Positions 7,898 to 11,078 of a DNA stretch of 32,555 nt are shown here, piece by piece (within the stretch, counting starts at the first letter, position 1; each line of letters begins with the position of its first letter). Origin of the DNA: Actinomycetota bacterium (lineage in GTDB: Bacteria > Margulisbacteria > Marinamargulisbacteria > GCA-2716485 > GCA-002719695); the NCBI GenBank assembly GCA_002697535.1, contig NZWE01000019.1, positions 1 to 32,555 of the forward strand. The letters run 5' to 3'. Below the pieces are notes generated by a model. That model had not been told where the DNA came from and did not search any database. It saw nothing but the letters and a program-made list of their open reading frames with translations. The position numbers and the translations under genes were made by a program.

Positions 7898-9154
7898 CTA
7901 AATATCTAAATTAATACCTAAATCAATACCACCCTGATCAACCAGAGAATCTTTACGATAAACAAATTCTAAATTCAAATAATCATTTAAGTTATAAGCT
8001 GAAGAAAAGCTAAAATAACGATTATTAAAATCATAAAAGTTAGCTGATAAAGAAATATTAGAACGTGGATAAAAATCAACACCTACCCCCTCAGCATTAT
8101 GAATAATTCCAAAACGTGACCTAAGTAAAGAAGAAAAACGATATGATTGCTGAAAATGTTGAAAATTAATATCTCCAAACCGATTTCCTATCCCACCTAT
8201 CAATCCAAACCGTCCATTATCAATCCCAACCATAGTATCAAAATAACCTCTAGAAATAGTCGGCGCATAAGAAACATGCGTATTAGTACTTAATTTTAAA
8301 TTACGAAAACTAGCTAAAGGCGATGATTCACCAACCCCACCCACTAACATTTGTAAATCAGAAGACACATCTTCTAAGTTACCAAGAATCGTCGTAATCT
8401 TACCAATCGTTTCAGGATCAGATAACGTTGACGTCATCGATTCCAATTCAGCTAAAGAAACCGTTGTAGCATGAAATTTTTTAATGGAATCATGAATTAA
8501 AAATAACGATTCCTCATTAACGACAGAATCAATCAAAGGTTGAATAGCATCGATAGAATCATTAGCACTTCTTAGCAAACTAGCCAATTCGCCTTTAGAT
8601 AAACTCGATAATTCAGTAGAAATATCATGAACATTACTAATAATACGTTTAATCTGAGAAAACAAAATAGGATCCATTAAAAATGACTTTAAGTGAGTAA
8701 GAATAGCCTCTGATTGAACTAAATTTTGAGACCCTAAATCAATAAAATTAGCTAAGTCAGACCCTGACTTTCCATTGATAATATCACCATCCTGTAAAAA
8801 TGATTCAACATTCAAACCAGGCTCAATCTGAATATAATTTTCACCAACTAACCCATCAAACATAATCTTAACTTTTGAATCATCCGGAATTTCAATCTGT
8901 CCATCAACAAAAAATTTAACATCAATGTGTATAGGAAGAGGTGAAATATAAACAACATGACCAATCGTATAACCACGATAACGAACTGCAGCACCATCAA
9001 TAAGCCCCCCAATATGATCAAACCGTCCAACCAACTCATACCCTGTAACTTTACGAAAAATATCACTTTGCCAAATAATTAGCACCATAGAAACAACAAG
9101 CATTAAAAAAGTAAAAATCCCAACAACAAGGGACTTATTAGAATCTCTATCCAT
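7898..9154 (-). CDS. MlaD-type MCE protein with C-terminal barrel-like region
   Basis: A 418-residue envelope lipid-transport protein. A single transmembrane helix is at about residues 8-28. The MCE domain follows (about 35-115; RYRGYTIGHV, then GLVGENYIQIEPG). Residues 120-265 look helical with heptad-like spacing. Residues 280-418 switch to alternating polar/hydrophobic strands rich in Tyr, Phe, Asn and Gly (for example GGIGNRFGDINFQ and SLSANFYDFNNRYFSFSSAY), ending in short strand-like repeats and Leu-Asp-Ile. In E. coli, MlaD lacks this last part. In some diderm Terrabacteria such as Veillonella, MlaD is a long form reaching an outer-membrane barrel, and this gene has that layout. It is the last gene of the HMA-mlaE-mlaF-mlaD operon and overlaps mlaF by 8 bases. 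The MCE call is firm. The barrel is my reading of strand patterns. Confidence 0.85.
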   Translation of the reverse strand: MDRDSNKSLVVGIFTFLMLVVSMVLIIWQSDIFRKVTGYELVGRFDHIGGLIDGAAVRYRGYTIGHVVYISPLPIHIDVKFFVDGQIEIPDDSKVKIMFDGLVGENYIQIEPGLNVESFLQDGDIINGKSGSDLANFIDLGSQNLVQSEAILTHLKSFLMDPILFSQIKRIISNVHDISTELSSLSKGELASLLRSANDSIDAIQPLIDSVVNEESLFLIHDSIKKFHATTVSLAELESMTSTLSDPETIGKITTILGNLEDVSSDLQMLVGGVGESSPLASFRNLKLSTNTHVSYAPTISRGYFDTMVGIDNGRFGLIGGIGNRFGDINFQHFQQSYRFSSLLRSRFGIIHNAEGVGVDFYPRSNISLSANFYDFNNRYFSFSSAYNLNDYLNLEFVYRKDSLVDQGGIDLGINLDI

Positions 9155-9881
9155 TAGTTTTTCCGTTAATAAAAGTGTTAATAACTTTATTTGATGATGT
9201 CATAATCGTTTCAGGCGTTTCTGGATCAAACAAACTTCCTTCATGTAAATAATAAATTAAGTCAGAAGTTCTCATAATCGTAGAAATTTGATGAGTCACA
9301 ATAATAGCCGTAGTATTTAACTCATCCGAAATACGAACAATAAGATTTTCAATATTCGTTGATAAAACAGGATCTAAACCCGTCGTAGGTTCATCAAAAA
9401 GCAAATATTCAGGATTATTAATAATGGCACGAGCAAGACCAACCCGTTTTTGCTGACCTCCCGATAACTCTGAAGGAAACATAGCATTAAAACCTGACAT
9501 TTCAACCAAATCCAATGCCTGATCAATTTTAACTTGAATATCCTTACTAGAAAGCGAAGTCGGTGATTCTAATAAAGAAAAGCCAACATTTTCCTCAACT
9601 GTCATCGAATCAAATAAAGCTGCCGATTGAAATAACAAGCCTATTTTCTTTCGAATTCCATAAATTTCATCAACATTTAATAATGCCATATCCTGCCCAT
9701 CCACAAGAACCTTCCCAGAATCAGGCTTTATCAAACACAAAATTAATTTTAACAAGGTACTTTTTCCAGACCCAGAAGGTCCAATAATCGTAATCTTCTT
9801 ACCAGTAGGAACAGATAAAGATAAATCATCTAAAATAGATTTCCCATCAAACGATTTAGATAAATGACATAATTCAATCAT
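9147..9881 (-). CDS. MlaF-type ABC transporter ATPase
   Basis: A 244-residue cytoplasmic ATPase that powers lipid movement by the MlaE permease. Walker A is GPSGSGKST (34-42), the Q-loop is in LLFQSAALF (82-90), the signature is LSGGQQKR (139-146), Walker B is LLFDEP (160-165), the D-loop SGLD equivalent is TGLDP (167-171), and the switch histidine is His197 in IVTHQ. The sequence is complete. A strong Shine-Dalgarno AGGAGG stands five bases before the ATG. The gene lies between mlaE (22-base gap) and mlaD (8-base overlap), the standard gene order for this transporter class. Confidence 0.92.
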   Translation of the reverse strand: MIELCHLSKSFDGKSILDDLSLSVPTGKKITIIGPSGSGKSTLLKLILCLIKPDSGKVLVDGQDMALLNVDEIYGIRKKIGLLFQSAALFDSMTVEENVGFSLLESPTSLSSKDIQVKIDQALDLVEMSGFNAMFPSELSGGQQKRVGLARAIINNPEYLLFDEPTTGLDPVLSTNIENLIVRISDELNTTAIIVTHQISTIMRTSDLIYYLHEGSLFDPETPETIMTSSNKVINTFINGKTNG

Positions 9882-9903: not shown

Positions 9904-10665
9904 CTAAAATAAAAGATACGACAAAAAGTAATTAACAACAAAAATAGAAATAATAGTCTTAACAACCGCATGGGTTGTTGAAATACCAACACCCTTTGCA
10001 CCTGCTTTTGTATTAAGACCTTGATAACAACCAATTACCCCAATCAAAAACCCAAACACAAGCGCCTTAATAAGGCCCCCAATAATATCAAATGGCTCTA
10101 ACATATTAATAGCCGAACTAAAATAAGCATTTGGATTAATATTAGCCATAGGAACCCCCACAAAAAAACCACTCATAAACCCAACCCCATCAGCCACGCC
10201 TACCAATAAAGGCATCATAATCATCACAGCTAAAATCCTTGGAACAACCAAATACTTAACAGGATCTTGAGACAAGGTTTTTAAAGCATCAATTTGTTCA
10301 GTAACACGCATTGTACCTAACTCTGAAGCAATAGCCGCTCCAATCCGAGCACTTACAGCTACCCCCGTTAATAAAGGAGCCAATTCTCTCCAAATAGCTA
10401 ACCCAACAATACCTCCTAATAAAAAATTTGCTCCAAATTTTTCAAATTCTAAAACAATTTGTAACGTAAACGCCATTCCTATAAAAACAGACGTAATAAT
10501 TGTGATAGGCAACGATTGAATACCTAACAAATAAACCTGATTAATCACCTTATTATATAACTTATAAGGCGAAAACATAGACCTAAAAAAACGAAATGCT
10601 AACTGCGTTATACCACCTAAATTAATAAAATATGAAACAACAAAACTACCTAATCGATTAAACAT
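9904..10665 (-). CDS. MlaE-type ABC transporter permease
   Basis: A 253-residue inner-membrane permease of the MlaE (DUF140) family, with five to six hydrophobic segments. The hallmark segment VSARIGAAIASELGTMRVTEQIDAL sits in the middle of the protein (its key residues are Arg-Ile-Gly-Ala, Glu-Leu-Gly-Thr-Met and Glu-Gln-Ile-Asp-Ala). It would form the membrane channel for lipid passing between the MCE ring and the inner membrane. The ATG overlaps the stop of the upstream HMA gene by one base (TAATG), so translation is coupled. The gene is complete and unremarkable for the family. Confidence 0.93.
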   Translation of the reverse strand: MFNRLGSFVVSYFINLGGITQLAFRFFRSMFSPYKLYNKVINQVYLLGIQSLPITIITSVFIGMAFTLQIVLEFEKFGANFLLGGIVGLAIWRELAPLLTGVAVSARIGAAIASELGTMRVTEQIDALKTLSQDPVKYLVVPRILAVMIMMPLLVGVADGVGFMSGFFVGVPMANINPNAYFSSAINMLEPFDIIGGLIKALVFGFLIGVIGCYQGLNTKAGAKGVGISTTHAVVKTIISIFVVNYFLSYLLF

Positions 10666-11021
10666 TAATTAATCTTTATATTATAATCAATAACCTTTAA
10701 TGTCTTCTTGGGCAACTTCTTTAACACATAATTCTGATCTACTAAATCTGTATTAAGTAACGCCAAATTCTTTTTATGAGGATCCAAATGCAACACAATT
10801 CGCTTCGTTTCAAAATCAACAGACTCAACTGACACATATTTACCATTTAAAGTATTTTTAATCTTAAACTCACATGCCTTGCAAGTCATCCCTTCAACAA
10901 GATATTCTTTTTGCTCAAAATCTTTGTTACTACCCAAATTAGATTGGTTCATCACTAAAATAGTACATAGAAAAACAGTAGGTATAACCAAAGCAAGTAT
11001 AATAAGAACTTTTTTAAGCAT
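10665..11021 (-). CDS. Membrane-anchored heavy-metal-associated (HMA) domain protein
   Basis: A 118-residue protein with an N-terminal hydrophobic anchor (about 2-24) and one HMA domain carrying the metal site Gly-Met-Thr-Cys47-Lys-Ala-Cys50. The domain faces outward, so it would bind copper, zinc or mercury-type ions, or act on thiols, in the periplasm. I place the start at the ATG at 11021 because GGAG lies six bases before it. The longer frame from 11078 would begin inside the promoter and add 19 residues that break the anchor pattern. It is first in the operon with mlaE, mlaF and mlaD, overlapping mlaE by one base. HMA proteins are not a usual part of Mla transporters, and the reason for the linkage is unknown. 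No metal exporter is seen nearby. Confidence 0.78.
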   Translation of the reverse strand: MLKKVLIILALVIPTVFLCTILVMNQSNLGSNKDFEQKEYLVEGMTCKACEFKIKNTLNGKYVSVESVDFETKRIVLHLDPHKKNLALLNTDLVDQNYVLKKLPKKTLKVIDYNIKIN

Positions 11022-11049
11022 GATAATCTCCAATAATGAGGAATACCTA

Positions 11050-11078
11050 ATTTTACCGATATTTTCTGTAGGAATCAA
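11050..11078 (-). promoter_or_regulatory. Promoter of the HMA-mlaE-mlaF-mlaD operon
   Basis: On the minus strand: TTGATT (11078-11073), 17-base spacer, TAAAAT (11055-11050). It leaves a leader of about 22-25 bases with GGAG before the ATG at 11021. It also argues against the longer HMA start at 11078. Confidence 0.6.

Follow-up and report, generated by a model that had tools for sequence, protein, structure and literature searches.

A long MlaD with a putative C-terminal outer-membrane barrel in the mlaE-mlaF-mlaD operon of a Margulisbacteria genome

The mla locus described here raises the question of whether one long MlaD protein can span the periplasm and take the place of the separate proteins MlaA and MlaC. 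The window, by which we mean the whole stretch of 32,555 nucleotides that was analyzed, belongs to a genome assembly of 1.57 Mb that is 76% complete. The following genes of the window are concerned.

10665..11078, minus strand: HMA-domain ORF upstream of mlaE (PF00403, E 7.8e-6)
9904..10665, minus strand: mlaE, permease (PF02405, E 1.9e-77; TIGR00056, over its curated NCBIfam cut-off)
9147..9881, minus strand: mlaF, ABC ATPase (PF00005, E 9.6e-37; NF008809 MlaF, E 1.2e-50, under its cut-off)
7898..9154, minus strand: mlaD, long form, whole gene of 418 aa with an ATG start (open reading frame and PF02470)

These genes form a compact operon on the minus strand in the order mlaE-mlaF-mlaD, in which mlaD is the final gene and its start overlaps mlaF by 8 bases. 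The surroundings of the operon were read in 13 relatives, and each of them has the same gene order on one strand; the spacing is exceptional in L037, where about 1.2 kb lies between mlaE and mlaF. The HMA-domain ORF overlaps the start of mlaE by one base and is probably co-transcribed with the operon; it also adjoins mlaE in L032, L033, and L035 (33% identity in L035). This ORF, which may encode a metal-binding partner of the operon, has a hydrophobic segment at its N-terminus and contains the motif CKAC. The operon is flanked by the HMA-domain ORF and comEC on one side, and by an exonuclease-domain gene and a gene taken to be dcd on the other; the statement of the earlier note that mlaA, mlaB, and mlaC are not adjacent to the operon is therefore correct. 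Elsewhere in the window, at 3-1142 on the plus strand, there is an open frame that runs over the edge of the window; it contains a degenerate repeat rich in Ala and Thr (ATAQTTASVANAISTAAALPK type) and, after this, a tail that looks helical.

The 418-aa product matches the TIGR04430 MlaD model with an E value of 4.6e-21, which is under the curated cut-off, and its segments were assigned as follows.

9056..9133, minus strand: N-terminal inner-membrane helix, about residues 8-33, hydrophobic sequence KSLVVGIFTFLMLVVSMVLIIWQSDI
8816..9043, minus strand: MCE domain, residues 38-113 (Pfam match and genome-wide PF02470 search)
8300..8761, minus strand: alpha-helical stalk, about residues 132-285 (about 150 residues, amphipathic, helical periodicity)
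7901..8299, minus strand: putative C-terminal outer-membrane beta-barrel, residues 286-418 (periodicity, composition, C-terminus, and low-confidence model)

The earlier note had described an MCE domain followed by a helical stalk, and both were recovered. PF02470 matches residues 38-113 with an E value of 1.6e-15, and phmmer finds solved MlaD and MCE chains, e.g., 6z5u and 6zy2. This is the sole PF02470 match in the whole genome (G000:C8:8816-9043), and thus one MCE protein was found in it. In the stalk, the hydrophobic moment at 100 degrees, calculated for 29 family sequences, reaches a z value of 7.1, while the moment at 180 degrees is under that of the shuffles. The stalk may be up to about 22 nm in length, if it is one continuous helix.

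In residues 286-418 the periodicity is of the other kind: for 29 homologues the 180-degree moment has a z value of 5.6 (0/500 shuffles) and the helical moment is not raised. Aromatic residues make up 17% and Gly 11% of this segment, and Cys is absent, in agreement with the aromatic, alternating strand pattern that had been noticed earlier in the last 140 residues. When residues of the nine modelled strands are divided by strand phase, Asp, Glu, Lys, and Arg amount to 8% on the hydrophobic face, which would point outward, vs. 32% on the other face, where Gly accounts for 19%. Tyr and Trp occupy 15% of the two end positions of strands vs. 4% of inside positions (0/1000 within-strand shuffles). 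This enrichment is no more than supportive, since a comparable trend, though not a significant one, occurs in the soluble MCE domain (96/1000 shuffles). The protein ends with D-L-G-I-N-L-D-I, which we take to fit the outer-membrane beta-signal pattern.

Searches at the level of families and folds gave no significant counterpart of this C-terminal domain. Pfam had no significant family match to the C-terminal barrel domains, and a profile of 28 of these domains, compared with solved structures, gave one non-significant match (TMB12sol9_3, E 0.068). A tblastn search on plasmids for named barrel-bearing homologues matched the MCE and stalk parts only, and these matches were mostly actinobacterial. 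AlphaFold2 was run for the full MlaD and for the C-terminal 144 residues, with alignments of three sequences (MlaD and two relatives). The model of the full protein (pLDDT 33) has a helix at residues 3-37 and five helices across 142-272; that of the C-terminal 144 residues (pLDDT 37) consists of nine strands in an all-beta meander, whose search against PDB folds gave nothing significant, the best being soluble up-and-down barrels at an E value of 0.15. Since both models are too unconfident, the C-terminal fold is unproven by them. The proposal of the earlier note that residues 280-418 form a barrel was opposed by no confident soluble fold in the structure prediction, and a confident barrel was not obtained either. 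A barrel of nine strands, as weakly modelled, may be compared with the ten that are expected.

Intact mlaA and mlaC elsewhere in the genome would have spoken against MlaD acting in their place, and a search of the 76% complete assembly detected neither MlaA nor MlaC, while the positive controls of E. coli and Caulobacter were detected. The phylum set consisted of 74 genomes, 34 of them of high quality; MlaA or MlaC was found in none of these 34, and 28 of them have a match to the long MlaD. In the total set, the long MlaD and MlaE are each matched in 56 genomes, and the two sets of genomes differ by one each way (MlaD without MlaE in G004, and MlaE without MlaD in G050). The genome studied here is that of a diderm by its Omp85 content. 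Two Omp85 proteins were found, and a 1664-aa frame with a weak match to TamB lies near one of them on the same contig, which is a different contig from that of the mla operon. LolA was not found in the 76% complete genome.

This architecture had been published before. It was reported from Veillonella and many other bacteria by Grasekamp et al. (2023; PMC10665443), and the idea of a one-piece MlaD bridge is thus sound but not new. V. parvula has mlaEFD only, with no MlaA or MlaC, and its MlaD of 419 aa is composed of a TM helix, an MCE domain, and about 150 residues of helical region, after which a C-terminal barrel of 10 strands is predicted. Upon fractionation, a TM-MCE construct was recovered with the inner membrane, and the barrel was in the outer membrane, together with TolC. 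According to the same study, the long form represents 85% of MlaD homologues, a C-terminal barrel was inferred in 103 MlaD sequences (about 10%), which are widespread among the diderm Terrabacteria, and MlaA and MlaC are generally missing where barrel-ended MlaD occurs. The word Margulis is not present in the main text of that paper.

Since the present protein agrees with the published one in part order, length, operon, and absences, it is well supported as an ordinary further example of the known long, barrel-ended MlaD. An mlaE/mlaF/mlaD operon is common to both, the lengths are 418 and 419 aa, and the order of TM helix, MCE domain, helix of about 150 residues, and C-terminal beta domain is the same, the barrels being likened by description and not by sequence. 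Omp85 and TamB-like proteins are present in both, and MlaA, MlaC, and LolA were found in neither. The differences are that the phylum is another one, that tolC and tamB are not beside the mla operon here, and that the weakly modelled strands of the barrel are nine instead of ten. The E. coli MlaFEDB-MlaC-MlaA system has MlaE, MlaF, and the MCE domain of MlaD in common with this locus, whereas its MlaD is of 183 aa with no stalk or barrel, and it uses MlaA, MlaB, and MlaC; here, MlaA and MlaC are absent from the genome-wide search and mlaB is not beside the operon. PqiB, LetB, and mycobacterial Mce1A-1F resemble the system in their MCE rings and in tunnels, either helical or built of stacked rings, that cross the periplasm (PMC10665443 and general knowledge), and differ from it in having several MCE domains or forming heterohexamers, with no complete C-terminal barrel for each chain.

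The locus very probably encodes a trans-envelope lipid transporter of the Mla type with three components, MlaE, MlaF, and a long MlaD, as in V. parvula. In such a transporter, MlaE and MlaF would constitute the inner-membrane ABC transporter, on which an MCE ring made of six MlaD copies would sit. Across the periplasm, a hydrophobic tunnel would be built from the helical stalks; at its far end, every C-terminal domain would become an outer-membrane barrel of about ten strands and dock the tunnel there. Phospholipid would pass between the outer and inner membranes, most likely in the retrograde direction, with no need for a shuttle or for a lipoprotein of the outer membrane, and TamB-type proteins may act in the opposite direction, as in V. 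parvula. A single barrel of the V. parvula type has been judged too narrow for lipid (PMC10665443), and the simplest role for one barrel per MlaD monomer would be anchoring and docking. By analogy with V. parvula, MlaD may span the periplasm and replace MlaA and MlaC in this organism. With this locus, an uncultured phylum that has been little studied joins the diderms that apparently move phospholipids via a one-piece MlaD bridge and not via the shuttle of E. coli.

Two other explanations have to be weighed against the V. parvula-like transporter. The C-terminal domain might instead be soluble in the periplasm, as an up-and-down beta domain that closes the end of the tunnel or attaches to a partner in the outer membrane, MlaD itself not entering that membrane; we regard this as improbable. 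Strand alternation by itself is seen in soluble and in membrane barrels, soluble beta barrels came up in the weak fold search, and the strand-end trend of Tyr and Trp occurs, at a non-significant level, in the soluble MCE domain too. However, a hydrophobic phase nearly free of charge over nine strands, with the other phase rich in Gly and charged residues, is the pattern of outer-membrane proteins, and the presumed beta-signal at the C-terminus fits the same location. The behavior of the equivalent domain of V. parvula, which fractionates with TolC (PMC10665443), also argues against a soluble domain.

The second explanation, that the genes for MlaA and MlaC lie in the quarter of the genome that the assembly lacks, MlaD working with both in an E. 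coli-like manner and its long tail being an accessory anchor only, is more improbable still. It draws on the completeness of the assembly, 76%, but the phylum as a whole tells against it: the high-quality genomes are without MlaA and MlaC and mostly have the long MlaD, and the two genomes that do have MlaA and MlaC are without both MlaD and MlaE.

These two genomes (G005 and G021, of the same class) have both MlaA and MlaC and no match to MlaE or the long MlaD, and their loci are as follows.

L046:9632-13283 (G021:C127): mlaA/mlaC locus of G021
L047:3180-3836 and L048:1-2999: mlaA/mlaC loci of G005

In G021, mlaA, mlaC, and a gene of the MMPL family are consecutive. The gene order of G005 matches this: mlaC is followed by a membrane protein that resembles the MMPL protein of G021 and has the same kind of acidic insert, and mlaA sits at a contig end. 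Both MlaA proteins have, by eye, a plain signal-like N-terminus in which the lipobox cysteine is absent, and an MlaA without a lipobox fits the absence of LolA. Foreign contamination as the origin of MlaA and MlaC in G021 is disfavoured, and the contig looks native because the FlhA encoded on it shares 65-70% identity with the majority of FlhA proteins in the class.

We tentatively propose that, within the phylum, a bridge-type MlaD and a shuttle route through MlaA and MlaC may be interchangeable solutions, G005 and G021 carrying instead MlaA (with no lipobox) and MlaC beside an MMPL-family pump; this reading is possible rather than probable. Mutual exclusion of the two in the class is suggestive only, since it concerns two genomes that are 77-78% complete and since the class has other Mla-less genomes. 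If the proposal is true and the phylum belongs to the diderm Terrabacteria, the two genomes would be an exception to the total absence of MlaA/B/C stated for that group (PMC10665443). At the level of the class, the division between bridge MlaD and MlaA-MlaC-MMPL may serve, as a natural experiment on a small scale, to show what the bridge substitutes for.

Two minor observations were made in the phylum set. In family f21 (G035-G042), Omp85 is present in all 8 genomes and a match to MlaE or the long MlaD in none, and these appear to be outer-membrane bacteria without the whole Mla system, which was apparently lost. Several of the genomes G027-G034 carry, beside the flagellar FlhA, a second, divergent FlhA homologue (39-40% identity), which perhaps represents a second export apparatus.
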